The notes beneath the pieces were generated by a model. It made no database searches. It had not been told where the DNA came from and saw only the letters and a program-made list of their open reading frames with translations. A DNA stretch of 64,000 bases, taken from IMG/VR virus record IMGVR_UViG_3300025000_001646, positions 1 to 64,000 of that record; one strand, written 5' to 3'. This DNA comes from a virus. This document shows, in pieces, positions 13,969-58,344 of the stretch. How positions within the stretch are numbered: position 1 is the stretch's first letter; each line of letters starts with the position of its first letter. Made by a program: the position numbers and the translations under genes.

Positions 13969-14913
13969 ATGGATTTAGTAAGATCAGATTTAACAAATCT
14001 ATTGAAAGCTGGTATGAAAAAGGAATTTTTCAAGGCTTTCGAATCAGAAGAAACTGCTTATAAAGCAATCGTAACTGAAACTTCTTCTGATAAAAATCAA
14101 GAAGTTTATCCATTTTTAGGTTCTTCTCCTACAATTTCTGAATGGAAAGATGAGAGAAAACCAGTTGGAATGACTGAATATTCTAAAACAATCGTAAACT
14201 ATGATTGGGAAGGAAGTCTAGGAGTTGAAACAAATGCTATTGACGATGAACAATATGGTCAAATCAAACTTCGGGTTCAAGATTTAGGTGGTCAATTTGC
14301 TCGTTTCTATGATGAATTAGTTTTCTCTTTAGTAAGAATGGGTAATTCTACTTCTGCTACTGCTGGAACAATTCTTGAAGGAAAAAGTATTACCGCTTAT
14401 GATGGAAAAGCTATGTTTGCAAATGATCATTCAGAAGGTGATTCAGGAACTATAGACAACTATGGAACTACTGCTTTTGGATCTAATGAACTTAAAGCAA
14501 TTATCACTGCTATGATGAAATTCAAAAATGACAAGGGTCGTTATGCTGGAATTACACCAAATCTTTTGGCAGTTTCTCCAGATGTTAAATGGGATGCTAT
14601 GGAAAAATTAAACTCTGTATATTACCCAGAAGAAGGAACAACCACTTCTAAAATGTCAAACAACGTATTGAAAGGTGCTTTGGATTTGATTGTTTCTCCT
14701 TGGTTAACTGACACAAACGATTATTTCGTTTTTGACACTACTAAGGCAATTAAACCAATCATTCTTCAAACTCGTAAAACTCCAGAATTTACTGCTCTAG
14801 ACACTGGTACTGAATCATTGTTTATGAGAAAACGTATTTTCTACGGAGTAGATGCTCGTATTGGTATTGGTTGGTCAAACTATAGACTTGGTTATGGAGA
14901 ATTTGTTGCTTAG
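13969..14913 (+). CDS. Major capsid protein, Mu gpT-like
   Basis: 314 aa. EVYPFLGSSPTISEWKDER, VNYDWEGSLGVETNAIDDEQYG and a YDELVFSLV helix follow the layout of Mu-like major head subunit gpT; length is typical. 26 glycines and none written TGA, in sharp contrast to the portal, protease and glycan genes. It would assemble the icosahedral head with the decoration protein and be matured by the protease at 11600. A strong terminator follows at once. Confidence 0.85.
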   Translation: MDLVRSDLTNLLKAGMKKEFFKAFESEETAYKAIVTETSSDKNQEVYPFLGSSPTISEWKDERKPVGMTEYSKTIVNYDWEGSLGVETNAIDDEQYGQIKLRVQDLGGQFARFYDELVFSLVRMGNSTSATAGTILEGKSITAYDGKAMFANDHSEGDSGTIDNYGTTAFGSNELKAIITAMMKFKNDKGRYAGITPNLLAVSPDVKWDAMEKLNSVYYPEEGTTTSKMSNNVLKGALDLIVSPWLTDTNDYFVFDTTKAIKPIILQTRKTPEFTALDTGTESLFMRKRIFYGVDARIGIGWSNYRLGYGEFVA

Positions 14914-14924
14914 TTAGAAATTAA

Positions 14925-14956
14925 AAGAAGGGATCAGAAATGGTCTCTTCTTTTTT
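14925..14956 (+). terminator. Rho-independent terminator of the capsid operon
   Basis: 11-bp stem AAGAAGGGATC/GGTCTCTTCTT with two wobble pairs, 6-nt loop and T run, 11 nt after the capsid stop codon. Confidence 0.8.
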
Positions 14957-14983
14957 GACTTTTGATTTTTACTTTGTTATACT
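14955..14983 (+). promoter_or_regulatory. Sigma70-type promoter of a small RNA
   Basis: TTGACT, 17-nt spacer, TATACT, beginning in the T run of the capsid terminator. Start expected near 14990, exactly at a perfect hairpin. There is no coding sequence downstream for 900 nt. Confidence 0.7.
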
Positions 14984-14989
14984 ATTTAT

Positions 14990-15100
14990 AGATTTTACAA
15001 TGCGGTTTGTAAAATCATAGCGGATTTCAAAATGGTTAAGAAAAGACTTGGTGAGTCAATTTCTCTATTAGAGAAAATCCAAGCCTTTTCTTATTATAAA
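14990..15100 (+). ncRNA. Small hairpin RNA after the capsid gene
   Basis: Begins with a perfect 10-bp hairpin (GATTTTACAA/TTGTAAAATC, loop TGCGGT). A second composite hairpin at about 15042-15096 has three stacked stems (AAGAAAAG/CTTTTCTT, CTTGG/CCAAG, TTCTCTA/TAGAGAA). The loop sequence TGCGGTTTGT recurs in the HNH leader RNA on the - strand near 9635. No open reading frame. Function unknown; it might also act as a processing or termination structure. Confidence 0.5.
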
Positions 15101-15138
15101 ATATTTTTATATTTAGTAAAGTGAAAAGATGCTAAGAA

Positions 15139-15168
15139 TTTTCTTTTTTTCTAAAAAAGTAATATAAT
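15139..15168 (+). promoter_or_regulatory. Promoter of the large structured RNA
   Basis: TATAAT at 15163-15168 behind a T-then-A tract spacer, with a weak TTTTCT/TTTCTT -35 box. Layout is like the promoter before the other interleaved leader at 33247. Start expected near 15175. Confidence 0.5.
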
Positions 15169-15182
15169 TATTTTAAGATTAA

Positions 15183-15262
15183 TAGCACAATCTTTAAAAT
15201 AAAGTATTAAGTCGTTTTATGTAATCGCTGGGAAGATTGTGCTAACTTTGATCCCAGCGATT
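15183..15262 (+). promoter_or_regulatory. Interleaved three-helix leader at the 5' end of the large RNA
   Basis: Order a1-c1-b1-a2-c2-b2: TAGCACAATCTT with AAGATTGTGCTA (12 bp), AAAGT with ACTTT (5 bp), AATCGCTGGG with CCCAGCGATT (10 bp), then TTTTTTG. Same order and spacing as at 33283 and 9601 (-), with unrelated primary sequence. The last helix plus T run could terminate transcription, making it a switch for the RNA behind it. Confidence 0.6.
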
Positions 15263-15748
15263 TTTTGTTTTACATATCCATATAATATCCATAATCTAAA
15301 CTGACTCAATGTCGAATATGGTATTGGTGTTGACTAGCGAAATCCGTTAGGGAAGAGTAGACTCGGTAAACATACCGCAAATCTTCTTTTAAAGAATTAA
15401 TAGGTTAGTGTATAACCGCACCCCCTTACACTATTACAATAAAAAATCTATTAATACATGGCGGGGTTCAATTAATGCAATTGACTGGACTAGGCAGAAC
15501 CTATTATTGTAATATAGGAAATAATCCCTGCCATTCAGAGCTTAAGAAAATTCCTAACGAGTAGTACCGAAAAAAAGAGTTATTCTTTTTCTTTTCCTTT
15601 AACCAGGAAGCCTGGACTGTTTTTAAATTTTTAAGAATTTTTCCTAAAAAAAACAAAATAAAAAGGCTAAACAAATAAGATTAAAAAAAGTAATAGCAAA
15701 AAACAAAGAAAGAGTAATAATAGAAGAAAAAAGAAATCTCCAAAAAAA

Positions 15749-15826
15749 CCAAACCTAGTTACTACAAGAAACCTACATTTGGAAAAACAATGTAAGAGTA
15801 GTAATTAACAGGTTGGAATTTTTTTT
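15749..15826 (+). terminator. Long terminator hairpin ending the structured RNA
   Basis: Nested stems CCAAACCT/AGGTTGG, TTACTAC/GTAGTAA and TACATT/AATGTA followed by eight T. It lies just before the glycan operon. Confidence 0.6.
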
Positions 15827-15907
15827 ATTTAGAATATTATATAAAAAAACTAGAAAAATATAAAAATTCTATTGATTTTGTAAAATTCTACTGTTAAAAT
15901 ATAATTA

Positions 15908-16693
15908 ATGATTGAAAAAATAATTAAAGATCGAGCAGATGTGCATATAATAACTCTTAATTATAAGAGGTTAGATTGCACTAAAGAATTATTAAAATCA
16001 CTTAGGAAAAATATTTCTTGAGTAGATTATATCGTTACTATAGTAAATAACGATGATGACGAAGAAGCTAATGAATGGATTAAAAAACAAGAAGATTGTA
16101 ATTACATCCTAGATACTGGCAATCTAGGTTTTTCTCGTTGAAATAATTTAGCTTTTGAAAAAGTAAAATCAAAATATACGCTCTTTATTAACAATGACAT
16201 TACTGTTAATAAAGGCTTTTTGAAAAAGATGATTGAGAGTATTGAAAAAGAAGAAATTAATGCTGCTGTCGGTTGTAAAATAGTCCACCCAGAAACTAAA
16301 AAAATAATGCATGCTGGTATTATATTTAATACCGCTGGTTTACCATTAGAAAGATGAAAATGAATACCAAATAATAATAAACTATTCGTAAATGAATATG
16401 AACCTATGAATGCTTGTACTGCGGCTTGTCTTTTAGTTAGATCAAAAATATTTGATTTTTTTAGATGATTTGATCCTACTTATGTAAATGGTTGGGAAGA
16501 CAATGATTTTAACATGAGAATGAGAGAAAGAGGATACCAAATAATCTATAATTGATGAGTTTTGGTTTACCATCTTGAATCTGCTTCGCCTTGAAGACAC
16601 TTAAAAGAAAAAGAAAATGTAGATTTATTCATTCAAAGATGGATTAAAACTGGAAAAGTATTTAAAATAACTTCTTGTAACCTCAAAAAATAA
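15908..16693 (+). CDS. GT2 glycosyltransferase (rhamnosyltransferase-like)
   Basis: 261 aa. NLGFSRGNNLAF, with the first Gly of GNN written TGA, then FINNDIT and NGWEDNDFNMRMRERGY are hallmarks of family 2 transferases that add sugars to surface polysaccharide. First gene of the glycan operon; its stop overlaps the next start (TAATG). The ATG lies only 2 nt after a TATAAT box, so the true start may be the in-frame GTG at 15941, which would begin at VHIITLNYKR. Confidence 0.8.
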
Positions 16694-17508
16694 TGAATAT
16701 TTCAATAATCATACCAACTTATAATAGACCAGACTTACTTAGGCTTTGTCTGACTTCTTTATTGAATCAGAATTGTAGAAATTTTGAGGCTATTGTTGTA
16801 GATGATTGAAGTAGTGAAGACATTATGTGAGTAGTAAAGGAATTTGAAAATGTACTTGAAATAAAATATTTTTGGCAAAAAGATTTATGATTTAGAGCTG
16901 GTGAAGCTAGAAATTTTGGTGCTAGAATTTCTAACACTGATAATTTTCTTTTTTTAGATAGTCATATAGTCTTGAATAAATTTGCAGTGGCACACTATAT
17001 AAACTATGCAAAAGCTAATCCAGACCTTACTATTCTTGGTAGATATGATTGGCTTGCTCCTATGAGAATTGGTTATGCTGATTTATTTATTCACTGGGAT
17101 CAAATTATTAATAACGAATTACCAAAAACTAAAATAGAATGAGAAATAGGTTATATAGGCAAAGACCCTAGAACACTTAAAATAGAAACAGTCATTGAAA
17201 AATGGGGAACTGATTGTTTTAGTGGTAACCTTTTTATACCTCGAAAACAATTTGAGGAAATAGGTGGCTTTGATATAGCAATACAATGACACGGTGGCGA
17301 AGACCCAGAGCTTGGAATGAGATTAGAAAAAGCTGGTTACAAAGCTTTATTTTCAGAAAATGTTATAGGCTACCATATTTACCATAAGAGAAATCAAGAA
17401 GAAAATATTAAAAGTTTAGAAAAAAATGTGGCTTATATAGCAGAAAAACATGGTAAGGATTTTAAAGAACTTCTTGACATACTTAGTCGCAGAAAACAAT
17501 ATACTTAA
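16693..17508 (+). CDS. GT2 glycosyltransferase
   Basis: 271 aa. Opens with ISIIIPTYNRPDLLRLCL and VVDDGSS, the latter Gly being TGA; FLDSHIVLN is the DxD-region equivalent. GGFDIAIQGHGGEDPELGMRLEKAGY closes the acceptor domain. It overlaps the previous stop by one base and resembles the next gene (shared FLDSH and ENVIGYHI or EVIGYHI), so the two probably arose by duplication. Confidence 0.8.
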
Positions 17509-17520
17509 TCTTTTTAAAAA

Positions 17521-18558
17521 ATGTTTAAATTTTCGGTAATAATACCAGCATATAATTTTCCAAATCATCTTGACTGTTGTTTGATGGCTTTGACTAGACA
17601 AACTTTCAAAGATTTTGAAGTTATAGTAGTAGATGATTGAAGCAAAGAAAGTTTGAAAGTAATTACAGACAAATACACAGACAAACTTCCATTAACTTAT
17701 ATTAGAAACGAAAAAGAAAAAGACATCTGGAAGGCGGGGCAAGCTAGAAATATTGGAATAAACTTTGCTAAAGACCACGAATCTACTTATTTTCTTTTCT
17801 TGGACAGCCACGTTGCTCTTAATCCTCTTGCAATGGAGTATTACAACGAATATTCAATTAGACATCCAAACACTGTTATTATAGGCAAATATAATTGGAT
17901 GCCTCCTATGATTATAATTCCCGAAGACATAGAAAAAAGATTTAAAGATTTTACTGAAAGAAAACTTCCACTTGACCCTAAAAATGAAGACTTGGGATTA
18001 ATATGTGAAGACCCTAGGTGAACTAATACTTGGATTAAAAAAGAAAGACAAGCTCCAGATGAAAATAAAGGTAGTCAATGGGGGCTAGGTGCTTGGACTG
18101 GTAATGTTTGTTACCCGAAAGAAGCTATTATGAAAATTGGTGGATTTTTAGACATACTAGAAAATCATAATGGAGAAGATGGTTGTTTAGGTGTAGCTGT
18201 AGAAAGACTTGGTTATTGGGCTTGCTTCTCTGACGAGGTTATAGGTTACCATATTTGGCATAATAGACCAAAAGACGCTAACAAACACACCCTAGACAAT
18301 ATAGATTTTATAGATTATGTCCATCTTATTGGTAAGTTTTGGAAATTTAATGACAGTGAAAGAAACTTAATCAAAGAAGATGTTAGAAGAGTAGCTAACG
18401 GCGAACAACCTTTAGAGCTTAATAAATCAGAAAGACAAAATCCTTGAAGTTTACATCTTCAAAATCCTAAACTACTTTTAGAAAGAATAGAAATTTTTGA
18501 AAATTCTACCTCTCCTTATGTTTTTAACTATAAAAATATATGACATCCAGTCTCTTAA
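17521..18558 (+). CDS. GT2 glycosyltransferase
   Basis: 345 aa with TGA at VVDDGS, DPRGTN, NPGS and NIGHP. FSVIIPAYNFPNHLDCCL at the start and FLFLDSHVALNPLAM as the metal-binding region place it in GT2. ENHNGEDGCLGVAVERLGYW is the acceptor-side motif. Paralogue of the preceding gene; the last 19 nt overlap the next gene in another frame. Confidence 0.8.
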
Positions 18559-19361
18559 TAACGAGCTATAAAAGAACGGCACTATTGAGAAGGTCGCTAC
18601 TTACTTACAAAACTTTTCCCGATGAAATTATAGTAATCAATGATTGAGGTTGAGATAATTTGCTGGATTTAGTTAAAGAAAAATCACAAGAAATAAAAGT
18701 GAAATGGAAATATTATGACAACTGACCAAAAGAGTATGGTAATTGTGCTAAGGCTAGAAATATTTGATTAAAAATAGCTGAATGAGATATATTGATGACT
18801 ACCGAGCCAGAGCTTATGTTTATTTCAGACCCTATTAAGCAAGCCTTAGATTATTTTGAGAAAGACAAAAATATTAGTCTAGCCTCTGGAACGGTTTATT
18901 TTTCTCAAAAATATTCTCAAACAGACTTAATTGAACAACTAGACTGGAATGATGTAAACAAGGCTATGGAAGTAGTAAATAAATATGCTAAAAAATATTA
19001 TACAGGCTATGTCTCTAATAATTGAGACATCTATTATGTAGAAGACAATCAAGCACCTTTCTTTTGAGCTTACTGGCGAGAAGATTTACTAGAGCAAAAA
19101 GGATGGAACGAAGATTTTGTTTTTTGGTGAAATGAAGACAACGAATTACAACATAGACTTGAAATGTCTCCAAACAGAATAAAACATAGCAACTTTTCAG
19201 ATATTAAAGTTTTCCACCAATTCCACGAAAGACCGCCTCAAAAAGCAATGTGAGATTGTAACCAATGACTATTAGACAGATTAAACTTGGAACAAAAATT
19301 TACTTGTAACGAATGAGATTGGTGAAAATATGACTCTTCTAAAATTATAACTTTTAATTAA
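18540..19361 (+). CDS. GT2/GT7-like glycosyltransferase
   Basis: 273 aa with 12 or more TGA codons. SLLITSYKRTALLRRSLL and VINDGGDN form the nucleotide-binding start; FFGAYWREDLL and FVFWGNEDNELQHRL match the C-terminal acceptor domain of galactosyltransferase-like (Glyco_transf_7C) proteins. In all three quoted Gly-containing motifs one or more Gly is TGA. Part of the contiguous glycan operon. Confidence 0.75.
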
Positions 19362-19362
19362 A

Positions 19363-20445
19363 ATGAAAATTCTTATTACAGGTTGAGCTGGATTTATTGG
19401 CTCAAACATAGCAAAAAAAGCTATTGAAAAATGACACTCTGTTATTGCTTTTGATAATCTTTGTAGAGAAGGCACAGAGGAAAATGTAAAAATACTTAAG
19501 GAAGTTAGTTATAATCATCCTATAATTAAATGAGATTATATTATTAATCCATATAAATTAGTTAGATGAGACATTAGGAGCGATGCCGACATTGACAAGT
19601 TAGTAAAGAATGAAGATTTTGATGCTATTATTCACATGGCCGCTAATCCTGGTGTGCCTTGGTCTACAATGTATCCTAAATATGATTTTGAACAAAACGC
19701 TCTTGGTACTTTGAATATGTTAGAAGTAGCAAGAAAATTAAATATTCCTTTTATTTATGCCTCTACAAACAAGACTTTTGATTGTTCTTTAAATGACATA
19801 CCAGAAACAGAAGGAGAAAAAAGGTATGACTGGGATTTGACTGGATTAGAGATTAAAGGCATAACAGAAAAAGGCGTAGATCATCACTTCAATACAACTA
19901 GCCCAGAAGGTTCTCAACACTCAAATTATGGAGTGTCTAAATTAACTGGGGATTTATATTGTCAAGATTATTTCAGAACTTATGGTGTAAAGACTGTTAT
20001 AAATCGTATGAGCTGCATATACGGTTTAATGCAAAAAGGCTGTGAAGACCAGTGATGGGTCGACTATTTTGTTAGAAAAATTGCTTTTGGTGATTGAAAA
20101 TTAAATATATATGGTAACGGAAAACAAGTTAGAGATTTGCTTTTTGGCGAAGATGTGGCTGAACTTTATATTACTGAATTAGAAAATATAGACAAATGTG
20201 CTGGAGAAGTATTTGTTATAGGTGGTGGAAGAGAAAATTCTATGTCTTTAATTGAAGTAATTGAAGAAATAGAAAAACAGAGTGGAAAAAAGTCAGAACT
20301 TAAATTTGACAAACCAAGACCCGCTGACCATAATATTTTTTACTGTTCGACAGAAAAAGCAGAAAGAATTTTAGGTTGGAAACCAAAAATAAGTATCAGT
20401 GAAGGTATTGCTAAAATGATTAATCAATATAACTTTTCTAAATAA
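19363..20445 (+). CDS. SDR sugar epimerase, CDP-paratose 2-epimerase-like
   Basis: 360 aa. ILITGGAGFIGSNIA is the NAD-binding GxxGxxG (second Gly TGA). The catalytic Tyr-Lys is in SNYGVSKLTGDLYCQ; STNKTFD replaces the usual NKVYG. MSCIYGLMQKGCEDQGWVDYF and IYGNGKQVRDLLFGEDV are characteristic of the tyvelose epimerase (RfbE-like) branch. Substrate cannot be fixed from sequence; another NDP-sugar is possible. Confidence 0.75.
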
Positions 20446-21072
20446 ATGAAACTTTCAGAAAATTTACAAAGCGAACTTAAAAGCTGGGTAGATGCAGATG
20501 ACGAAAATAAACTTGAAAGAGAATATATAAGATACCATAGAATGATTGAAGAGATGCTTTTAAACAAATTAAACTTAGCAAAAAGAAGTGTATTAGATAT
20601 TGGTTGCTGACCTTATTCAATATTAAATTTATTAGATTGTAAAAAAAAGACAGTTATAGACCCTCTTATTGATGATTATAATAAACATTTTGGTTTTAAT
20701 CCAGAAATTAATTATGTAAAATGAGTAGGAGAAAAAATGCCTTTTGAAAAAAATAGTTTTGATTTAGTAATAACAATGAACTCGCTAGACCATTGTGAAA
20801 ATCCAGATGAAGTAATTAAAGAAATCAGAAGAGTAATAAAACCAAGCGGATATTTAGCAATTCATATTTGTATTAACAACGCCATAAACAACCCACACCC
20901 TAGCCACAAAATCAATATAAATAGCGAATGGCTACATAATAGACTAGACGATATGTTTGAAACTGTCAGCGAAAAAGTAGTGCCTTATTGATGGCAGATT
21001 GACAAAACAACAGGAAAAAGATGACAGCCAGCTATTGCTTTACTTATGCGAAATTGTAACTTTAACAAATAA
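20446..21072 (+). CDS. SAM-dependent methyltransferase
   Basis: 208 aa. Motif I is VLDIGCGPYSIL, with the central Gly as TGA; MPFEKNSFDLVITMNSLDHCENP and RRVIKPSGYLAIHI are the following class I methyltransferase motifs. ATG follows the epimerase stop directly. In a glycan operon it probably methylates a sugar or the polymer end. Confidence 0.75.
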
Positions 21073-21248
21073 TGAAAAAAACTTGCAATCAATGTAAAGA
21101 AGAAATGATTCTTATAGACAATCTAGAAATTTTTGAGAAGAAAAAGAAAGAAAGTAAGTCTATATTTAGAGCCTATGTTTGCAGGAATCCTAAATGCCCA
21201 AACTATGCTTTATTACAAATTCCTTTAGAGGAAATGACTAAAAATTAA
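21072..21248 (+). CDS. Small zinc-ribbon protein
   Basis: 58 aa with CNQC near the start and CRNPKCPNY near residue 40, a four-cysteine zinc ribbon. It overlaps the methyltransferase stop by one base (TAATG). No TGA. Function unknown. Confidence 0.55.
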   Translation: MKKTCNQCKEEMILIDNLEIFEKKKKESKSIFRAYVCRNPKCPNYALLQIPLEEMTKN

Positions 21249-21260
21249 TTTTATTTATTT

Positions 21261-21410
21261 ATGAAAAAAGAAGAAAAAATTAAAATACCTCAAATTGAAA
21301 TATCTCAAAAAGTAATTGATGTATTAACATTAGACGAATTGAAAATAACAGTAAATTTATCAAAAATACTTATAAAAAATCATCCATTAATAAAAATTAA
21401 AATTTCATAA
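21261..21410 (+). CDS. Small hypothetical protein
   Basis: 49 aa, Lys/Ile-rich, probably helical. It begins after the recurring A/T start signal (TTTTATTTATTTATG) and lies in the operon between the zinc ribbon and the dehydrogenase. No recognisable domain. Confidence 0.4.
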   Translation: MKKEEKIKIPQIEISQKVIDVLTLDELKITVNLSKILIKNHPLIKIKIS

Positions 21411-21435
21411 TATTTAATATATAAATAATTTACCT

Positions 21436-22287
21436 ATGAAAAAACCATTAATCTGATTTATTTGACAAGGTTGGATTGGAAAAAATTATTCTGATGACCT
21501 TGAAAATAGATGTTATGAAGTTATTAGATACTCTCTTGATCCTCAATATATTTGAAACAAAGACAAAATAAAAGACGCCGACATTGTATTTTTAGCTGTT
21601 CCTACTCCAAGCACTCCAGAATGATTTGACTTTTCAATTGTTAGAGAATGATTGAGTCTTGTTTGAGATTGAAAAATAGCCGTTATTAAGTCTACAATCT
21701 TGCCTTGAACTACCGACAAATTACAAGCAGAATTTCCAGAAATTTATCTTTTTCACTCTCCAGAATTTTTGGCAGAGGCTACAGCTAAACAAGATGTAGA
21801 AAATCCAGACAGAAATATAGTTGGCTATACAGAAAAATCTCAATGTAAGGCTAGTGATGTTATGAGCGTTCTTCCAGTAGCTCCTTATGAGAAAATAATT
21901 CCAGTTAAAGAAGCAGAACTTATTAAATATGGCGGAAATTGTTTTTTCTATTTTAAGGTTATTTATTGAAATTTGCTTTATGACATGGCTAAGAAACTTT
22001 GACTTGATTATGAAATAGTACTAGATTGAGTATATAATGACAAAAGAATCGGCAGGACACACCTCAATCCTATTCATAAAAATTGAAGATGAGCTGGAGG
22101 CCACTGCTTCGTCAAAGACCTTTGTGCCTTCTACGAACTATATTCTAAAATTAATTCAGAAGACAAAGAAGGTATAGAACTTTTGAGAAAACTACAGGAA
22201 AAAAATATTAAACTTATGAAGGATTCAAACAAAGATTTAGATTTATTGAAAGGAGTATATTGAGAAAATTTAACTTTAAACTTTTAA
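21436..22287 (+). CDS. UDP-glucose/GDP-mannose dehydrogenase family protein
   Basis: 283 aa, shorter than the usual 390-440. IGFIGQGWIGKNY is the Rossmann start; DIVFLAVPTPSTPEG, KSTILPGTT and HSPEFLAE follow the family order. EAELIKYGGNCFFYFKVIYGN corresponds to the substrate-binding Lys/Asn helix and GGHCFVKDL to the catalytic Cys loop (usually GGxCFPKD). It probably oxidises UDP-glucose to UDP-glucuronate, the substrate for the decarboxylase-like enzyme at 24113. The C-terminal domain is largely missing. Confidence 0.75.
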
Positions 22288-23226
22288 ATGATATTAGTCA
22301 CTGGTGGTTATTGATTTATTGGTAGCAATTATATAAAACACTTAATCGAGAAATGAGAAAGTGTTATTAATATTGATAAACTTACTTATGCTTGAGATGT
22401 TTCTAATCTTCCAGAAAGTGACAAAATAAAGAATTTTCAAATTGACATTAATGACAAGAATTTAGTATATGATGTATTAAAAGAATACAAGCCAGAAACA
22501 ATTATACACTTCGCAGCCGACAGTCACGTGGACAATTCGATTCAAGACCCTAGCCCTTTCATAGTCAATAATATTCTTGGAACTTATAACTTACTAGAGG
22601 CTCTTAGAAAATATGGAAAAGCTAAAAAAATAATTATAATTAGCACTGACGAAGTGTATTGAAGCACCGAATATTGGGGTGTAGAAGAAGATTATAGATT
22701 TGAGCCAAACTCTCCATATTCAGCCTCTAAGGCTTCTGCCGAATGCTTAGCTTATTCCTATTACAAGACTTTTGACTTACCTATTATTATAACAAGAAGC
22801 TCTAATGTTTATTGACCTAACCAACAAGAAGAGAAGCTAATACCTAAAATAATTTCCAAATCATTAGATAAATCGGAAATTCCGATTTATTGAAATGGTA
22901 AAAATAAACGCTGGTGGTTGTCTGTATATGATTTGTGTAATGCTCTTGATTTATTAATTAAAAAAGGAAAAGTTTGAGAAAAATATAATATAAAATGAGA
23001 CTCTGAACTTTCTTCATTACAGATTGCTAAAATATTTAAAAAAACAATGTGAGATGATTTGAAAATTAAGTTTGTAGCTGACAGAAAAGCACACGACAAG
23101 AGGTATAATATTAATGACAGCAAGATTAGAGAATTATGATTTAGGAATAAACATAAATTTAAGAAAGAATCGAGAAATTTGGTATTTAATTTTATTACTA
23201 AACTTTTTGAAAAATGGAAGGATTAA
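22288..23226 (+). CDS. rmlB: dTDP-glucose 4,6-dehydratase
   Basis: 312 aa. LVTGGYGFIGSNYI (NAD site), [19 protein letters not shown] and [16 protein letters not shown], then RSSNVYGPNQ, follow RmlB closely; the Gly of DEVYG and of NVYGPNQ are TGA. It converts dTDP-glucose to the 4-keto-6-deoxy sugar. RmlA is next; RmlC and RmlD lie in the second block (57899, 60264). Confidence 0.85.
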
Positions 23227-24107
23227 CTTTCGTTGAAAATTTCGCTTATGAAAGAGATTGAAAAAGATGCCGACACTGTGGCACCAATGAGAATATAAAA
23301 ATTTATAAAATAGATGAAAAGAAAATAACTAGAACAGCAGGAGTAGACAATCTTATTACTCTTTGTAAAGATTGTTACAATAAAAAATTCTTTAATGAAG
23401 AAGAAAATGTTTGTTGAGTAATTTTAGCTGGTTGAAAAGGCACAAGGATGGCTCCAATAACTAATTTCTTAAATAAACACGAATTACCAGTAGGCAATAG
23501 ACCAATGGTTTTTCATCCTCTTTTCACTCTTAGAGAATTATGAATTAAAAATGTATTAGTTATTTTCGAGCGGTATAATACTGGAAGAATGATTGAGGCT
23601 CTAGGTAATGGAAGAGAATTTGGAATGGAAATAACTTATAGAATACAGCATTGAGCGGGTGGTATTGCAGACGCTCTTAGTCTAGCTAAAGATTTTGTTT
23701 GAAATAGAAATTTTTATGTTATTCTTGGAGACAATATTTTTGACAATAACGAGATTGGAAAATTTAAAAAATCTGTTAATCCAAAAGTATTCATTAAACA
23801 AGTAGCCAATCCAGATGAATATTGAATTGGGGAAATTATAGATTGAAAAATAAATAGGATTATAGAAAAGCCTAAACAATATATAGGTAATATGGCGGTA
23901 ACTGGACTTTACCATTATACTCCAGATGTATTCGACATTATTCAATGATTAAGACCTTCTTGAAGAGATGAGCTTGAAATAACAGACATAAACAATTACT
24001 ACTTAAAAGAATGAAAACTTGATTATGAAATTATAGAAAGTTATTGGGTTGACTCTTGATGCAATCTTTCATCATATATAGAAGCTAATAAAATTTTTAA
24101 TCTTTAA
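23214..24107 (+). CDS. rmlA: Glucose-1-phosphate thymidylyltransferase with N-terminal zinc domain
   Basis: 297 aa. Residues 15-65 carry CRHCGTNENIKIYKID and LCKDCYNKKF, an HNH-like CxxC...CxxC zinc fold unusual for this family. Then the nucleotidyltransferase core: VILAGGKGTRMAPITN (second Gly TGA), LPVGNRPMVFHPL, ILGDNIF and MAVTGLYHYTPDV. It makes dTDP-glucose for RmlB. It overlaps the rmlB end by 13 nt. Confidence 0.8.
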
Positions 24108-24112
24108 AAAAT

Positions 24113-25081
24113 ATGAAAATATTAATTACTGGCGGGGCTTGATTTATAGGATCTAGTCTAGCACAAAAACTTTTAACAAGAGAATGAATAGAAGAGATTG
24201 TTATAATTGACAATTTGAGTACTGGGAATAAAAACAATATTCCTAAAGATGAAAAAATTAAGTTTATTGAATGAGATGCTGGAGACACTGAATTAATTAA
24301 AGACTATGATTTTGACGAGATTTATCACTTAGCTAGTGCCGCTTCTCCAAAGAAATACCAGATTTATGCAATTGAGACTATGATTGTAAACGCAGAAGCT
24401 ACCAGAAAACTTCTTGATTATTGCGTAAGACAATTAAAAGAAAAGAAAAGAAAAGTCAAATTTCTATTCGCTTCTACTAGTGAAATTTATTGAGAACCAA
24501 TTAGTCATCCTCAATCTGAAACAGATCTTTCAAGAATAAATATTAATTGACCTAGAGCTTGTTACGATGTTTCAAAAGCTTATGGAGATGTTTTGACAAG
24601 ATTATATGCAGAAGAAAAAAAGATTGACACCAAAATAGTGCGAATTTTTAACACTTATTGACCTGCTTTAGATAAAAAAGATGGAAGAATAATTTGCAAT
24701 TTTATTGAACAGGCTAAGAAAAAAGAACCATTTACAATTTATGGAGCTTGAAACCAAACAAGATCTTTCTCTTATGTAGATGACACTGTTGATGGAATAT
24801 TGACTGTAATGGAAAAAGGTAAATCTGGGGAAGTATATAATGTTGGTAATCCATTTCAAGAATTTACAGTAGAATCAGTTGCCAGAATAATTTGTAAAAT
24901 ATTCCGAAATGAATATAGTGTTATTCGAAGAGATTTACCACAAGATGATCCTAGCAAACGAAAACCATCTATAAATAAAATACAATCTTTAGACTGGAAT
25001 CCTAAAGTAAATATATATACAGGAATAAAAAAAATGATTGGAGAAGAACTCCTTTCCGAAATAGAATCATTTACAAAATAA
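24113..25081 (+). CDS. SDR enzyme, UDP-glucuronate decarboxylase/UDP-xylose synthase-like
   Basis: 322 aa. ILITGGAGFIGSSLA, HLASAASPKKYQ, STSEIYGEP, PRACYDVSKAYGDVL and RIFNTYGPA match the UXS branch of extended SDRs (ASPxxY and CYDxxKR regions are typical). TGA codes Gly in GAGFIG, EIYGE and NTYGP. With the dehydrogenase at 21436 it would turn UDP-glucose into UDP-xylose or a relative. Confidence 0.75.
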
Positions 25082-25093
25082 TCTTAAAAAAAA

Positions 25094-25420
25094 ATGAAAT
25101 TCAAAATTACTGACAAGAATTGAAAAATAGTAAATTCAGCAAAATTTACAATTGAAGATTGAGAAATTAAAAAACTTATTGTAGATAAAGAACCAGATGA
25201 AATTGATTTTTCTAAAAATAAATTAGATCTTTACAAAGAGTTAGATGCAGATCAATTTAATATTGAAATGTTTGATGAAAAACCAAATGAAGAAAAAGTT
25301 GAAGAGAAAAAAGAAGAGCAAAAAATTGAAGAAAATAAAGAGGAAAAAGTTGAAGAAAAACCAGAAGAAAAAAAAGAGGAAGTAAAAGAAGAGCCTAAAG
25401 AAGAGCTAAAAAGTGAATAA
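25094..25420 (+). CDS. Acidic Lys/Glu-repeat protein
   Basis: 108 aa. The first 30 residues resemble a small beta domain (KFKITDKNGKIVNSAKFTI); the last 60 are repeats of EEKKEE/KVEEK. Such tails are usually disordered or coiled. It overlaps the next gene. Possibly a virion or scaffold-type accessory; no function can be given. Confidence 0.5.
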
Positions 25421-26156
25421 TTACTTATTAGGAAAAGATTGATTTATTGGAAGTAAATTAGCAGAGAGGCTTGAAAATCTCTCTGTTTTTGAATGAGATT
25501 TTTTGAAAGACCAATTTGATTTAAAAGGAATAGACTATGTCTTTCACTATATTTCTACAACAGTACCTTTTTGATCATTCGCAGAAAAAGACATATATGA
25601 AAATTTGCTTAATACTATTAGACTTCTCAATGCTTGTGTATTGAATAAAGTAAAGAAAATTATTTTTCCGTCTAGTGGTTGAAGCCTATGCGAAGAGCCA
25701 AAAAGCTCCCACGCTATAATCAAACGAACTATTGAGGATTTTCTTAAGTATTACCAAAGACAATATTGACTTGATTATTTAATTCTAAGGTATACGAATG
25801 TTTATGGTTACAATGAAAGACAAAATATTTGATTAATTAATAATATGATTAGATGTGCTTTGCATTGAGACATTTTTTTACAATATTGAGACTTAAAAAA
25901 GAATTATATTTATATCGATGACGCTATTGACGAAACAATTAAAAATTTAGACAGAAAAAATGAAACTATTTTAATTGGTGGACAGACTTACAGAGCAAGC
26001 GAAATTGAAAAAATAATCAATAAAAATTATTGAAATATTAGAATAGAACATTTAGAACCGTCAAAATTTGATGTAGAATATTTTTGACCAGAATTTATTA
26101 CTAATACTACTATAGAAAATGGAATTAAAAAAATTGCGAATAGGTATATTGGCTAA
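25413..26156 (+). CDS. NAD-dependent epimerase/dehydratase (SDR)
   Basis: 247 aa from GTG at 25413. YLLGKDGFIGSKLAERL is a degenerate nucleotide-binding site, VFHYISTTVPFG and KKIIFPSSGGSL replace the usual catalytic Ser motif, and LRYTNVYGYNERQ follows. TGA codes Gly in all of these. Start assigned because GTG overlaps the previous stop region and gives the normal distance to the Gly motif. Probably acts on an NDP-sugar. Confidence 0.65.
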
Positions 26157-27132
26157 TTGTATTGAAGTTCCACCTCTTTCTTATGGATGAATTGAAAGGG
26201 TTATTTTTCATACAGTTGAAACATTAAATTGACTTGGTTATGATGTTGTTTTGTTTGCTCCAAAATGAAGTAAAGTAAGTTGTAAACTGGTAGAAGTTAG
26301 TTGATGGAATGATGAGACAGATGTTTTTTACGAGGCTTTTAAGAAAGAAAATGAAATAAAACCTTTTGATATTTTGCACGACTTTAACGCTTCGGGCTAC
26401 AAGAACCCAGAAAGATTTAAACATAATTATTGTTGCACAATTATTTCTTCTGGCTATTGAACAGGAGTAGTCAATGAGCCAAACCCTATTTTTCAAAGTC
26501 AAGCACAATTAAATTGAGCAAGAGAATTTATAAAAGACCTAGATGCTCCAGTAGTTTATAATTGATTAGACAACGAAAAAATAGTATATAACGAAAACAA
26601 AGATGATTATTTTTTATATTTAGGAAGGTACGATTGGCAAAAAGTCCCACATATAGCAATTGAGGCAGTTAAAAAGGCTTGAGTGCCTTTGGTAATGTGC
26701 TGATACAATGCAGATGACAAATACTATAAAGAAAAAGTTGAGCCGTTTTTTGACTGAAAACAAATAATTAATCTGGGAGCAGTTAGTGAAGATATACAGT
26801 CAAGATTATTAAGTGAAGCCAAAGCACTTTTATTTCCTTCCAATTGGAGAGAATGTTTGGCAATAGTTTTATTACAAGCTCTAGCAAGTTGAACTCCTAT
26901 AATAGCAGAAACTTTTGACTGAAAAAATTGTATTCCAGAAGTAATTGAAAATTGAAAAGAAGGTTTTATTGTTAAGTGAAGCTATGAAATGGCAGAGGCT
27001 ATTAATAATATAGACAAAATTAAACACATGGATTGTCGTGTTAAGGCAGACAGTCTTTTTACTAGACAAAAAATGGTTGAAGGTTACTTAAAAATCTATT
27101 ATATATTATTGGAAAACAAAAAAACCTCTTAA
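26119..27132 (+). CDS. GT4 glycosyltransferase
   Basis: 337 aa. LSYGGIERVIFHTVETLNGLG and VLFAPKGS form the GT-B N-terminal half; LFPSNWRECLAIVLLQALASG with TPIIAETFDGKNCIPEVI is the GT4 donor-binding EX7E region. At least 14 Gly are TGA. Retaining transferase using an NDP-sugar. It overlaps the SDR gene by 38 nt and ends in a terminator hairpin. Confidence 0.8.
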
Positions 27133-27142
27133 TTAAAAGAGG
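27125..27142 (+). terminator. Probable rho-independent terminator
   Basis: CCTCTT/AAGAGG stem with a 6-nt loop overlapping the GT4 stop, followed by a weak T-containing tail. Confidence 0.45.
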
Positions 27143-27222
27143 CTTATTTGCTAATCTAATCTATAAAACCAATCAAACATTAACACCAAAATAATTATAG
27201 CAATTATAAATTTAAAAATCAA

Positions 27223-28011
27223 ATGAAAATTTCAATTTGTATGGCGGTTTTCAATCGGGCTGAACTTTTGAAAAATGCTATCAAATCTCTTTCTATACAA
27301 ACAAGAATACCAGATGAAATAGTAATAGTAGATGATTGAAGTGACGCTAAAAATGATTTAAAACTTGTTTTAGATAATTTTCCTTGATTAAATATAAAAC
27401 TACTAAGAAGAGAATCAAAACTATGGAATAACCCTCCTATACCTCTAAATTGAAGTGTCAAGAATGCTACTTGAGATTTAATAATCTTTTCTTTCCCAGA
27501 CATAATTCATTACAATTTCGATAATATAGAAAGATTGGAAAAAATGTTTGAAGAAAATAGTAATCAATGTATTGTAGGAGCTAAGATTTATTGGCAAGGC
27601 AAAGATGTTCTTTTACCAGAGAATATAGTAGAAAATCCTAAACTTATTGACGATTTTAATGTAAAGACTTGGTATAACTGATTTGTTTCAAAAGATGATG
27701 AGGTTGTAATTACAGAAGACTTGCAAACCAGCAATATAATGGCAGTTACTAGAGAAAATTTTATTAAGTTATGAGGTTTTGATGAAGAACTTTCACAAAG
27801 TTATTGACACGAAGACAGCGAATTTCTTAATCGTTGCCATAACAACGAAATAAAAGTAAGTAGAGACAATTCTATAATATGAATACACCAGTGGCACAAA
27901 AGACCACCAGTTTATGCTGTGGCTAATTTAGAGAGTAAAAGAGATTATTTAAATGCTAGAAGAAAAATATTAACCGCTAATGATTGAAAAGATTGGGGTA
28001 ATCTTATTTAA
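27223..28011 (+). CDS. GT2 glycosyltransferase
   Basis: 262 aa. KISICMAVFNRAELLKNAI, IVIVDDGSDA (Gly = TGA) and IIFSFPDIIHYN are the donor side; NIMAVTRENFIKLGGFDEELSQSYGHEDSEFL is the classic acceptor motif. Own leader after a terminator, so it may be separately transcribed. It overlaps the VRR-NUC gene on the opposite strand by 8 nt. Confidence 0.8.
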
Positions 28012-28357
28012 GCATATTTTCGATTAGATTTATAGCTTCCTCTGCTCCATAACATATTTCAGCTTGAACATTTTCAATCGTATTTAGATTATTAATCCAT
28101 TCTTTTTGAGCCTTTCTAACAACGCTAAGGCTTTTTTTCTGTCTTTTCATCTCTATAAATATTAGTGCAGGCTCTTTTTTAGGTAAAATAATCATTAAAT
28201 CTGGAAGACCAGCATTCAATCCCATTGCCTTATTCTTTCTTTTTTGATTCCAAGAAGTAGTGAAAGTTGAATTAGGTATTGCCGTAAATTTAATATTCTT
28301 CATATTGAGCCAGTTAGCAAGCATTATTTGCTCTTCTTCCTCTAGTGGTATATTCAT
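28004..28357 (-). CDS. VRR-NUC domain nuclease
   Basis: 117 aa, the size of a stand-alone VRR-NUC protein. EEEEQIMLANWLNMKNI, GLNAGLPDLMIILP and LIFIEMKRQKKSLSVVRKAQKEWINNL give the E...PD...ExK nuclease core and the Gln helix. Phage members act like Holliday-junction resolvases or branched-DNA nucleases. Only early-type gene on the - strand here; start preceded by the AACCTTTATTTATTATG signal. No TGA. Confidence 0.85.
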   Translation of the reverse strand: MNIPLEEEEQIMLANWLNMKNIKFTAIPNSTFTTSWNQKRKNKAMGLNAGLPDLMIILPKKEPALIFIEMKRQKKSLSVVRKAQKEWINNLNTIENVQAEICYGAEEAINLIENMLK

Positions 28358-52774: not shown

Positions 52775-52873
52775 TTATAAAAACTTCTGTATCTCACTAA
52801 TATAAAAATAAATATTTTTAAAAAATAAATATATCAATATTTTAGATGATTTACGGAGGTGAATAAAAAAGAA

Positions 52874-52936
52874 AAAGCAGGTATCCAATATAATCAATTA
52901 TAGATTGCTTATTGGTATTAATCCTGCTTTTTTTTT
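52874..52936 (+). terminator. Terminator between early genes and lysis genes
   Basis: AAAGCAGG/CCTGCTTT outer stem and CCAATA/TATTGG inner stem with nine T after it. The inverted repeat also suits the converging - strand transcript. 52775-52873 before it holds nothing recognisable. Confidence 0.75.
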
Positions 52937-52943
52937 ATAAAAA

Positions 52944-53129
52944 TTATTTCTCTGTCAAAATTTTATAAAAGTTTCTCAAAACACTTAACAGAGAAGTCCA
53001 AGCCACAACTTGAATAATTTCTGGAGTAAGTCAGTTCTCTATATTAGCAACAGCCAATAAACCTGCAATGAAACAAGTTATATAAGTTTTTGCAAACGAA
53101 TAGAGATGTTGTAGAATTTTTTCTTTCAT
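52944..53129 (-). CDS. Holin
   Basis: 61 aa with one TGA-Gly. A hydrophobic segment (YITCFIAGLLAVANI) and a second weaker one (IIQVVAWTSLLSVL) around a short turn, with a basic C-terminal end; size and topology fit class II-type small holins. Last gene of the - strand lysis unit, directly downstream of a membrane peptide and an M23 peptidase. Confidence 0.65.
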
Positions 53130-53133
53130 AGAA

Positions 53134-53238
53134 TTAAAAAAGGTTTAAAATAGAATTATATAAAAATGATACTATTCCAAAAATTTCTAATATACATAGA
53201 ATCATATATATTAATATGAAATATAAAAATACTTTCAT
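53134..53238 (-). CDS. 34-aa membrane peptide of the lysis unit
   Basis: Almost wholly hydrophobic (KVFLYFILIYMILCILEIFG). Its ATG overlaps the M23 stop (TAATG). Could be a second holin, antiholin or signal-anchor partner. Confidence 0.5.
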   Translation of the reverse strand: MKVFLYFILIYMILCILEIFGIVSFLYNSILNLF

Positions 53239-53729
53239 TAGTATTTAGAGATTTTATGTTGTAGAATCCATCATTTTCAAAAGCAATCGACAAATCATCC
53301 ATAGCCATTATATACATTTATAACATTTCATTTTTCATCTTTATATCTTAATCACCAATGTAGATGTGGTTTTCATTTAGCACAACCACTGTCTCAAGTC
53401 TTGGCTATTAATTGTCATTGAGTAACTTTTGAATTATGAGTAATTAAAATTTCCGATAAATGAGCTAAAACTGTTTGTCTTCTCTTGGCTCAAAATTCTT
53501 CTGTTATATAAATATATTTACCATATCCGTCTATTTCATAGCCAGTGGTTAATATTCAATCAAATGAAGCAAATACTTCTGTTCATATAGGAGTTTTTAG
53601 GTCTACTCAATTGTGTCAAGAAAGTCACCATTTTGCATAAAAAGGTGTTTTTGTTTTTTGGTCAATCCAAGTATTGCCGAAAGGATTGTATTTTGAATCA
53701 AAACCTTCTTTAACTGGTGCAATAATCAT
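53238..53729 (-). CDS. M23 family peptidoglycan endopeptidase (endolysin)
   Basis: 163 aa. SGHNGVDLKTPIGTEVFASFDG (HxxxD), TVLAHLSEI and GDSGCAKGKPHLHWGLR (HxH) are the zinc ligands and catalytic residues of LytM/lysostaphin enzymes. Twelve or more Gly are TGA, so the gene is invisible in standard code. Start follows AACTTTATTTTTATATG and a - strand promoter. Confidence 0.85.
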
Positions 53730-53755
53730 ATAAAAATAAAGTTAAGTCTATATAT

Positions 53756-53784
53756 ATTATACTCTTTTTAAGAATATACAACAA
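53756..53784 (-). promoter_or_regulatory. Promoter of the lysis genes
   Basis: On the - strand: TTGTTG, 17-nt spacer, TATAAT, about 27 nt before the M23 start. Confidence 0.6.
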
Positions 53785-53834
53785 GATTGAAAAAAACCTT
53801 GAAATAATAATTTAAAAGTTGTAGAATATAATTA

Positions 53835-54866
53835 ATGAAAATTATAAATAAGTCATACAGACCAAAGGTTTTATTCCATTATTCAAATGAGTTTCACTAT
53901 TGCTGATTTGACGATTTAATGATTGAGTTAAGAAAAGATTTTGAGGTTACTAGTTTTTTTGATAGAAGAGTAAACGAAAATGAATATATTTGAATATTAA
54001 GATGTGTAAATCCAGATATTATAATTGATGTAGAATGGGACAGGAGAACAATGGAAAGTGAATTTAAAGACAAAATAAGAATACAATTGCCACATTGACT
54101 AGTATCTAAACATTATATGTATTGAGTGATTTGGAATAATTTTAGATATAATAAAACAATCACTTCTTGACCAGAAATTACTAAACAATTTATTGAAAGA
54201 GGATTGATTCCAAAAGAAAATTTGCTTGAATTAGGTTACCCGAAAATTGACAGACTACATAATGGATTTTATGACAAAGAAAAAATAAAAGAAAATTTAT
54301 GAATAAAAAATAATCTTAAAACTATTCTATACGCTCCTACATTCAAAGAATTTTCTTCTTTCAATTATTTTATTGAAGAAGATGAGGAGTATTTTTATAA
54401 AAGAATAAATTATTTAGCGAATAATTACAACATTATAATTAAGTTACACGCTTGAACACCAAACGAAAAATTTAAGCCGTATTTATTTGGAGAAAATGTT
54501 TACTTAATTTTTGATTATGATATTAGACCTTACCAATACTTAGCTGATATATGTATTTCTGATTTGTCTTCCGTAATATTTGAGTTTGCTTCACAAAACA
54601 AGCCAGTAATACTCCTTAGACCTTATGAAGATAACATTATAGACAAAAATTGAATAGAATGGACTATGAAAGACATAGGGACTAATTGTAAAAATTTAGA
54701 AGATTTAGAGAAGGCAGTTATGGAATATGATAAAAACCCAGAAAAAGACAGTGAAATCAGAGAAAAGTATAACAAACAAATATTTAAAAACTTATGATTT
54801 TCCAGTAAAATTCTAGCAAATAATATTCTAAAATTATATGAATCTAATAGTGCTTTCAGCTGGTAG
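53835..54866 (+). CDS. CDP-alcohol/glycerophosphotransferase-like transferase (TagB/TagF type)
   Basis: 343 aa. LGYPKIDRL, ILYAPTFKEFSSF, IIIKLHAGTP and CISDLSSVIFEFASQNKPVILL match the C-terminal catalytic region of CDP-glycerol glycerophosphotransferases. First gene of the phosphonate block; it may move a CMP-activated phosphonate or polyol phosphate onto a glycan. TGA-Gly throughout. It overlaps the next gene by 29 nt. Confidence 0.7.
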
Positions 54867-55488
54867 ATGAAGTAGGCTTAGACCACTAACAGACAACAAA
54901 CCAAAGGTACTATTGAAAATAAACTGAAAGACTATATTAGAAATGCTAAAAGAAAATGTTTGAGCCGAAAAAAATGTTGTAGTGACTTGATATCTTTGAG
55001 AAAAAATTGAAGAAAATAAGGTTACAAATGATTTATGGTATGAAAATGGTTCGTCTAGTAGTCTTTATTTGGCTAGAAACTACTTAAAATGAGATACAAT
55101 GATAGTTTATGGCGATATGATTATAGACAAAGAAGACTTTGAAGAAATGAAAAATCAAGATTGTATATTGGTAGATGACAAAGAAAAATGAGATGATTAT
55201 GATGAATATGTAAACAAAGACAGTCTTTGACTTAAATATAGAAGCGAGATTTGAGAATGTGAAAGATTTTTGTGAGCAATACATCTAAAAGAAGAAACTG
55301 CTAAAAAACTTTATAAATATTTTAAACCTTGAATGTTAAATTATAAGATTTGATTAGCCGACTTAATATGAGATTTTTTTGATGCTAACAATATAGACTT
55401 CAAAAAAGTTAAAGCTAAAAATAAATGGTTTGAATTAGACAAAATTCAAGATTATATAAATGCAAAAATATATTTTAATGATTATTAA
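54838..55488 (+). CDS. Nucleotidyltransferase, phosphonate/phosphocholine cytidylyltransferase-like
   Basis: 216 aa. LIVLSAGRGSRLRPLTDNKPKVLLKINGK, with breaks at two TGA-coded Gly, is the NTP-binding site of LicC/PntC-type enzymes; ENGSSSSLYLAR and IVYGDMIIDKEDF follow. LicC makes CDP-choline; PntC makes CMP-2-aminoethylphosphonate. The neighbouring PEP mutase favours a phosphonate substrate. Confidence 0.75.
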
Positions 55489-55491
55489 AAA

Positions 55492-56370
55492 ATGAAACTT
55501 CCTAAAATAAATTTTCAAGAAAAACTTAACTTAAAATGACAAGTTATAATCACTACATTTGATACTGGATTAAAAGACAATGAAATTATAATGATTTCAG
55601 AAGAGCCTAGCAAAGAAGAATTAGACAAAATAGTTTTTCAAACAATTACTGACACTATTTATGCTATTGGTGGTGGATCAGCTATTGATTGAGCTAAATA
55701 CCTATGCAATAAAGAAGGTAAAAAATTAATAGCAATACCAACAACTTTTTCTGGATCGGCTTCCTCTAGTCACTTAGTATTGAAAGAAAACTGAAAGAAA
55801 AAAGGTTATTCTGGAAATGAATACATACCAGATGAAGTAATAATCATCAACGATTTGCTTTACACTTTACCAGCTAAAACTTTCTTTTATTCTCTTATAG
55901 ATTGTTTTGCACATTCGCAAGAGGCTGTTAGAAGCAATAAGAATAATTTTATTATAGAATTAATTTCTGAAAATATTATAGGAACTTTTGGTAATGTTTT
56001 ACAAATGAAATTTGAGGACTTTATAAAACTTGATGAAAATAAAATGGAAGAAGAAAAAGCATTATTAGTTAGAGATTTTGGAAAAGTTTTATTAGTTATT
56101 TCTCTTTATGCTAGTTATATATTAAGTGAAGCTGGGACTAATTTACCACATGCAATTTCTTATGCTATTAGCAATTATGGACTTTCACATTGAGAAGCTA
56201 TAGCAATAGTTTATGGACTTAATGACAGAAGAATGAAAGACCTTTGAATAGAATTTGATTTAGAAAAAATGACAGATGAAATTTTATTAGATAGACACCA
56301 TTTAGACAATTTTCCTTGAGAAATTTCTAAGGATTTAATATTTAATACACTTAAAAAACTTTATGAATAG
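55492..56370 (+). CDS. Fe-type alcohol dehydrogenase, phosphonoacetaldehyde reductase candidate
   Basis: 292 aa, short for the family. AIGGGSAIDGAKYL (cofactor site, residues 58-71), IPTTFSGSASSSHL, LIDCFAHSQEA and LSHGEAIAIVYG (metal His ligands). Next to PEP mutase and phosphonopyruvate decarboxylase it would reduce phosphonoacetaldehyde to 2-hydroxyethylphosphonate, as PhpC does in other pathways. Confidence 0.75.
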
Positions 56371-57142
56371 GATTATTGGTTGCCATAATGCAATGACGGC
56401 TATATTATGAGAAGAGGCTTGATTTGATATGCTTTGGGCTTCTTGATTCGAGATTTGCACTTCTAAATGAATACCAGACAAGGATATACTTACTCAAACA
56501 GAATTTCTTGATGCTTTTAGAGAAATTAAAAACTCAGTTAAAATACCAGTAATTATAGATGCTGATACTGGTGGGACTTTAGAACAACTTAAAAGAATGA
56601 TTACTTTTTATAATCAAATTTGAATAGATTGAATATGTATAGAAGACAAGAAATTTCCAAAGACTAATAGTTTTATTGAAAAATGACAAGAACTTGAAGA
56701 AATAGATTTGTTTTGTAAAAAAATAAAGTTATTGAGCAAAGAATTTTCTGGAATGATTTTTGCTAGAATAGAAGCACTTATTGCTGGAAAATGAGAAGAT
56801 GAAGCTATAAAAAGAGCTAAGGAATATATAAAAGCTGGTGCTAATGTTATTTTAATTCATTCAAAAAGCGAAACTCCAGATGAAATAGTCTCTTTTTGCA
56901 GAAGGTATAAGAAGGAATGACTTACTATTCCTATTGCAATTATTCCAACAAAATATACAAGTTTTACTGAAAATTACATAAAAAAATACCCTCAAATTAA
57001 ATATGTTATTTATGCTAATCAATGAATAAGATCTTCAATAAAAGCAATAAAAGAAACTTATAAAAAGATTTTAAAAGATTGAGGCGTAAATAATTTAAAT
57101 ATTTCTACTCTTGATGACTGTTTTAAAATACAATGATTATAG
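56363..57142 (+). CDS. Phosphoenolpyruvate phosphomutase
   Basis: 259 aa. EDKKFPKTNS at residues 94-103 is the EDKxxxxxNS signature that separates PEP mutase from other isocitrate-lyase-type enzymes; DADTGGT precedes it and ARIEALIAGKG follows. Catalyses PEP to phosphonopyruvate, the entry step of all common phosphonate synthesis. Twelve of 19 Gly are TGA. Overlaps both neighbours. Confidence 0.9.
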
Positions 57143-57438
57143 GCGTTCCATATTCTGGCTGTGATTTTAAAGACGCTATTTATTTTCCTAGAGAAAATAG
57201 TGCTTTAGGTTATGCTATTTGAGCTAGACTAGCTTGAAAGGATGTTACTGTATTTATGCAAAACTCTTGATTATGGCATATATGAGATTTATTTTCCTCT
57301 TTCTTAATTCCTAGCAAACTTAAATGAATAAAATTTATTATTAACAACAGAAAAGAGCCAGAGCATCACAAGCATTCTTTTGAAAATATAAATAATCTCT
57401 TAAAAATTTATGGAATTGAAAATGCCGAACTTAACTAG
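57133..57438 (+). CDS. Phosphonopyruvate decarboxylase, N-terminal (alpha) subunit
   Basis: 101 aa. FPRENSALGYAIGARLAGKD and FMQNSGLWHIGDLFSSF match the N-terminal half of Ppd and related ThDP decarboxylases (ENxAxGxAxGxxLAG; MQNSGLG). The catalytic half is the next gene, overlapping by 17 nt. Shorter than usual (about 160-180). Confidence 0.75.
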
Positions 57439-57889: not shown

Positions 57890-57898
57890 TTTTATTTT

Positions 57899-58336: not shown

Positions 58337-58344
58337 AAAATCTA

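Follow-up and report, generated by a model that had tools for sequence, protein, structure and literature searches.

The window, i.e. the whole stretch of 64,000 nucleotides that was analysed, corresponds to bases 1-64000 of an IMG/VR virus record of 84,486 bases. The genes found in it include those of a portal protein, a prohead protease, a virion structural protein and a major head protein, a block of glycosyltransferase and sugar genes, and a block of early genes; the genes of the tape measure protein, GroEL and the large terminase are located outside the window in the same record. A tblastn search with the terminase gave no matches among 50,697 phage records, so the phage is distant from the described ones. 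A gap of 994 nt (14914-15907) separates the capsid gene from the first glycosyltransferase gene, and the RNA region within it adjoins the capsid, protease and portal genes. An earlier note on this DNA had described the region as lacking a reading frame, and indeed no ORF of at least 60 aa is present in 14914-15907 with either genetic code. The longest frame in the gap comprises 40 codons when TGA is counted as sense, and no Shine-Dalgarno-like site precedes any frame of 14914-15907. Protein coding was dropped, since there is no ORF and the 36-codon open stretch within the A-rich linker lacks a start codon. Positions 15200-15599 have a GC content of 0.34-0.375. Most other gaps with a length of 150 nt or more have 0.17-0.29; the exceptions are one gap with 0.31 and one with 0.35, the latter holding a tRNA.

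The earlier note had placed here, at 15175-15826, a structured RNA of about 650 nt with its own promoter and terminator. The analysis supports a large structured RNA that has a promoter, pseudoknots and a terminator, at wider coordinates: the predicted RNA unit is ~14,990 to 15,826, ~840 nt (Table 1). The best predicted promoter shares the top score with two other plus-strand sites (three in the window); its -35 box merges with the T-run of the capsid-gene terminator, and the predicted transcription start is near 14990. The expected promoter of the RNA is thus predicted to exist, but not where it had been placed, since the start at 15175 implied a perfect TATAAT at 15163-15168 that has no -35 box. 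The strong terminator at the 3′ end, a hairpin followed by eight T, is present as described; the terminator scanner, which has a loop limit of 8, did not list it. The start near 14990 and the T8 end at 15826 therefore predict a transcript of ~840 nt.

Table 1. Predicted features of the gap between the capsid and glycosyltransferase genes (window coordinates).
Feature	Position	Strand	Characteristics
Terminator-like hairpin 3′ of capsid gene	14923-14954	+	14 pairs, then TTGACTTTTG
Best predicted RNA promoter, extended sigma-70-like	14955-14983	+	TTGACT, 17 nt, TATACT, TG extension
Proposed non-coding RNA, ~840 nt	14985-15826	+	Folding z -6.0 for 14985-15840
Hairpin I, 10 bp, 6-nt loop UGCGGU (15001-15006)	14991-15016	+	Pair probability 0.99
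Hairpin II, long stem	15037-15093	+	Pair probability >0.9
Closing helix P1, 5′ strand	15117-15151	+	Predicted fold, duplex energy
PK1, 5′ strand TAGCACAATCTT	15183-15194	+	Perfect 12-bp pairing
Hairpin P3, AATCGCTGGGA/TCCCAGCGATT, then T-run, terminator-like	15223-15262	+	Pair probability 0.91
PK1, 3′ strand AAGATTGTGCTA, in P3 loop	15233-15244	+	Perfect 12-bp pairing
Hairpin A	15334-15350	+	Predicted fold
Hairpin B	15351-15387	+	Predicted fold
Hairpin C, ACCGCA (15415-15420) in apical loop	15396-15455	+	Predicted fold; kissing partner of hairpin I
KL2 strand in internal loop of hairpin C	15434-15441	+	Partner: domain D loop 15505-15512
Domain D, 9-bp stem and three short hairpins	15458-15534	+	Predicted fold
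Closing helix P1, 3′ strand	15569-15601	+	Duplex -25.8 kcal/mol
Hairpin E, CCAGG-AAG-CCTGG	15603-15615	+	Predicted fold
A-rich linker (65% A), mostly unpaired	15640-15745	+	Unpaired fraction 0.57-0.72
3′ terminator, branched hairpin + T8	15749-15826	+	Hairpin 15749-15816; eight T at 15819-15826

The segment 15175-15826 is indeed structured, folding better than its shuffles with a z-score of -4.9 (-4.5 in a second run), and the many helices and the interleaved 5′ pairing noticed in it are present in the predicted fold. A boundary scan gave z = -6.5 for 15110-15605 and -6.0 for 14985-15840, and for both strands of seven control stretches taken from this phage, z ranged from -3.3 to +2.0. The wider boundaries fold better because the 5′ strand of the closing helix P1 sits upstream of 15175. 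This position does not hold as the 5′ limit, since P1 and the kissing loop described below join 14991-15151 to the region. Among plus-strand windows of 150 nt within the gap, a z-score of about -3 was reached only at 14875-15099, 15175-15324 and 15700-15849; the middle windows of the core (z from -1.6 to +0.7) fold no better than shuffles.

In the predicted fold, P1 closes a multibranched core. None of 2000 paired shuffles and none of 3000 similarly spaced segment pairs reached its duplex energy, and the best partner of its 5′ strand, scanned over the window with a step of 6, was 15569-15601. P1 consists mostly of purines facing pyrimidines, a low-complexity makeup that helps its stability score. 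Domain D corresponds to the tRNA-like fold suggested earlier at 15461-15537. Its 9-bp stem is predicted with a mean pair probability of 0.95, yet neither ARAGORN nor the Rfam tRNA model recognises a cloverleaf, and the tRNA or tRNA-like identity was rejected. A tRNA array was also considered for the region and dropped; the only tRNA genes in the window are at 47793 and 58386, the nearest being 32 kb from the RNA.

The tertiary search covered complementary unpaired segments within the folded 14985-15840, and the tertiary and long-range pairings were picked after inspection of the sequence. The pseudoknots claimed in the earlier note were found by complementarity, as PK1 and further loop contacts: three pairings are not part of the nested fold, namely the 12-bp PK1, the 8-bp loop contact KL2 and a 6-bp kissing loop. 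The last is the strongest contact and involves the entire loop of hairpin I, UGCGGU, paired with ACCGCA of hairpin C. Its energy of -7.8 kcal/mol was equalled in 0 of 200 shuffles (hairpin-to-hairpin contacts) and in 0 of 286 control windows from both strands of the phage, where the best value was -5.2 kcal/mol. KL2, with its partner in the loop of the last hairpin of domain D, is the second-best contact, and an equally good second contact arose in 8 of 200 shuffles. PK1 is the interleaved leader, and a perfect repeat as long is carried by 14 of 300 shuffles; PK1 and KL2 are only about 1-in-20 events each.

PK1 and P3 could also be read as parts of a cis-acting leader or control element, with P3 and its T-run as a terminator and a switch between PK1 and a hairpin at 15168-15202 gating the glycan operon. 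P3 is terminator-like and is followed by TTTTTTG, and PK1 (-15.5 kcal/mol) and the competing hairpin (-5.3 kcal/mol) are mutually exclusive. However, PK1 pairs with the P3 loop and not with its stem, hence the terminator need not break; besides, the unit has its own T8 terminator ahead of the next gene, and P1, hairpin C and a kissing loop 400 nt off would be needless for such a switch. A control element is therefore considered unlikely. It is quite unlikely that the region comprises several small independent RNAs (hairpins I-II and the core) with accidental links. The TATAAT at 15163-15168 might start a second transcript, but it lacks a -35 box, and P1 together with the kissing loop connects 14991-15151 with the core at a level far above that expected by chance.

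A DNA-level feature, such as a replication origin, a packaging site or a recombination scar, whose inverted repeats merely mimic RNA helices, would fit an AT-rich gap with long inverted repeats. It would also fit the folding of the minus strand of the whole 856-nt unit (z = -6.4), which is as good as that of the plus strand, as expected of long inverted repeats, since these can fold on either strand. Against this, the core 15110-15605 favours the plus strand (z = -6.5 vs. -3.7 on the minus strand), and the kissing loop is found on the plus strand only, the best kissing contact of the minus strand in the same region being -3.1 kcal/mol. The unit is also framed by a promoter and a terminator on the plus strand. 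The cumulative GC skew climbs smoothly across the region, and a replication origin was dropped since there is no skew turn. This makes a DNA-level feature very improbable.

The earlier note named an Rfam search as a check, and this search found no family that fits the region. At the gathering level, the only match in the window and L013 was the tRNA at 47793, and at permissive levels (E 5 and E 10) only chance matches occurred. Known sRNAs were dropped because their weak Rfam matches are due to chance, and a group I/II intron because no Rfam match reached the gathering score. The GOLLD model (RF02032) gave its sole match in the record up to E 10 at 15157-15262, scoring 4.3 bits (E 5.9) where the cut-off is 150; sub-cut-off matches of this model were also obtained in 5 of 14 control genomes, none of which is known to hold GOLLD. 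The ROOL model (RF03087) had no match anywhere in the 84-kb record at E values up to 10, and the control genomes were equally silent. No OLE match appeared in the Rfam results at either permissive level, and phi29 pRNA had no Rfam match.

According to the available part of PMC12286853, GOLLD and ROOL are phage and prophage RNAs found near tRNA islands, which assemble into cages (14-mer and 8-mer) that kissing loops and A-minor contacts hold together; a disordered linker, lacking sequence conservation in ROOL, lies inside, and the cages are empty and of unknown use. The same part of PMC12286853 allows a comparison with the predicted RNA, which resembles GOLLD (~830 nt, phage-encoded) in its many helices, kissing loops and perhaps unpaired linker, and ROOL (~660 nt, phage or prophage) in its pseudoknots, kissing loops and perhaps linker. 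It differs from both in that the GOLLD family model fails on it, the ROOL model has no match, and no tRNA island is located nearby. The likeness to GOLLD and ROOL proposed earlier thus stands as regards size, phage context and loop-loop contacts, and fails as regards the covariance models and the tRNA neighbourhood. The loop-loop contacts of this style are present by complementarity in one sequence only, and the A-rich stretch 15640-15745, also seen in a single sequence, perhaps resembles the GOLLD/ROOL linker. By the tests run, the RNA is not a member of GOLLD or ROOL, though by analogy it may work like them. OLE (~600 nt) is likewise a large ornate single transcript, but in the partial account available it is bacterial, mostly from Gram-positive extremophiles and anaerobes, and not from phages.

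No homologues were found in the IMG/VR pattern scans, in phages, in plasmids or in capsid relatives, and the helices are consequently without covariation support. These negatives speak against close relatives only, as sequences sharing less than ~95% identity escape exact-pattern scans. The exact leader 22-mer had no matches in viral contigs. The degenerate hairpin-B pattern gave 75 stretches, none alike beyond the pattern among the matches listed; at least 15 loci had at least four of five pairs, and one of them (L002) was the window's own sequence. The GGACTAGGCAGAACC pattern gave seven matches, all unlike, and the TAACGAGTAGTACCG pattern 18, the best local one (L111, 41 nt at 80%) being taken as chance. 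None of the 99 matches of the hairpin-C loop 14-mer had a stem longer than 3 bp. The blastn search against phages and plasmids yielded short matches only, with E 0.1 or weaker; a Lak-phage match was discarded because it adjoins an apparent coding start and the second pseudoknot half was not seen. The covariance model R1 was built from a single sequence, 15334-15534 given twice, and is hence without covariation. Over 36, 74 and 98 loci it found only the window itself and one fragment (12 bits, E 0.98), and over eight whole records only its own record. In L004, a fragment that is a 98% relative by portal, neither the RNA nor its 5′ part was found beyond short low-complexity matches. No paper on a noncoding RNA of Gracilibacteria phages was found, as judged by title and abstract.

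In five capsid relatives (L098, L099, L100, L101 and L102; capsids 45-49% identical), the next gene is ~60-110 nt away from the capsid gene and the RNA is missing from this junction. L099-L101 are alike at the capsid junction, so the five represent about three lineages. The RNA is thus no obligatory partner of the capsid. A packaging or capsid-assembly RNA like phi29 pRNA, a phage RNA with intermolecular loop-loop contacts that forms a ring on the portal, would suit the adjoining capsid, protease and portal genes and the 6-bp kissing pair, but it is highly improbable given the lack of a pRNA match in Rfam, the far shorter length of pRNA, the absence of the RNA at the same place in the five relatives sharing the capsid family and the ordinary large-terminase match of the phage.

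It is very likely, judging by the sequence, that a folded RNA gene exists between the capsid and sugar genes. The best explanation, to which we assign a probability of roughly 0.6, is an autonomous gene for a large late phage non-coding RNA of ~840 nt, with a defined tertiary fold, acting as a scaffold. The folded RNA itself is well supported by the sequence, while its function is what we infer from it. The RNA would be transcribed as part of the late programme, from a promoter of its own located where the capsid gene ends, and transcription would stop before the glycosyltransferase operon. The sequence statistics support a fold with the multibranched core closed by P1, with PK1 towards the 5′ side of this core and with a kissing contact that docks the 5′ hairpin I onto hairpin C. 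The product would be the RNA in its folded form rather than a peptide encoded by it, and this RNA would serve as a scaffold in late infection. The kissing loop would act either within one molecule, folding it back on itself, or between adjacent copies, linking them into a ring or cage like those of GOLLD and ROOL. An oligomeric scaffold role in the manner of the latter, suggested by analogy, is possible though doubtful. The RNA might also represent a third class of giant phage RNA that has no kinship with GOLLD or ROOL and would form a homo-oligomeric particle via the 5′ kissing hairpin, in a phage with TGA as glycine in late genes; this reading is improbable enough to be put forward only tentatively. 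The RNA is possibly a new member of the small set of giant viral RNAs, an orphan with no known relatives.

Few large ornate RNAs of bacteria and phages are known, the cage-forming GOLLD and ROOL among them (PMC12286853, available part). An unrelated RNA of like size and habit, located beside the capsid gene in a recoded phage that has diverged deeply from others, would mean that the use of such RNA is broader than the catalogued families, and, should the third-class reading be true, RNA-only assemblies would have arisen repeatedly in phages. The RNA is a small, synthesizable test object for a question left by the available part of PMC12286853, whether large natural RNAs commonly form cages.

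The late genes of the phage use TGA as sense, and it most likely encodes glycine. The Pfam scores with TGA read as Gly vs. Trp were 229 vs. 205 bits for GroEL and 244 vs. 203 bits for an epimerase; for one glycosyltransferase the score did not improve (55.1 against 55.8). The GroEL-like chaperonin encoded by the phage (L013, 12170-13771) contains nine in-frame TGA codons. In-frame TGA is nearly missing at 28600-52800 of the window (2 in 5535 codons, 32 ORFs) and occurs in 86 of 4582 codons before 14913, 111 of 3756 in 15908-28100 and 57 of 1522 in 53200-58340, so the recoding is limited to one part of the gene programme. A tRNA with the anticodon TCA at 58386-58460, called SeC by ARAGORN only, lacks the usual T-loop and is missed by the Rfam tRNA model; it is a candidate suppressor reading TGA as glycine. 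As reported in the available part of PMC10746230, phages of CPR bacteria read TGA as glycine, which by analogy suggests a host group without assigning a host. Genome-collection scans with the capsid and the phage GroEL found no relatives.

In the plus-strand ORFs of the window, and in L013, a TAAYYT motif peaks 15-17 nt upstream of start codons. It is present at -25..-9 in 49 of 91 ORFs of at least 80 aa (shuffled mean 9.2, maximum 19), and Shine-Dalgarno-like sites precede four of these 91. The motif is weak in distant relatives (L098 0/12, L099 1/10, L101 3/17, L102 0/7), with 3/11 in L004. It is possibly a non-standard translation-initiation signal.

A second gap without plus-strand ORFs of 60 aa, 1060 nt long, is located at 52775-53834 and is overlapped by a minus-strand frame at 53238-53729 with 14 TGA. 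The first 856 nt of this gap also fold better than shuffles, with z = -3.1 on the plus strand and -3.3 on the minus strand.
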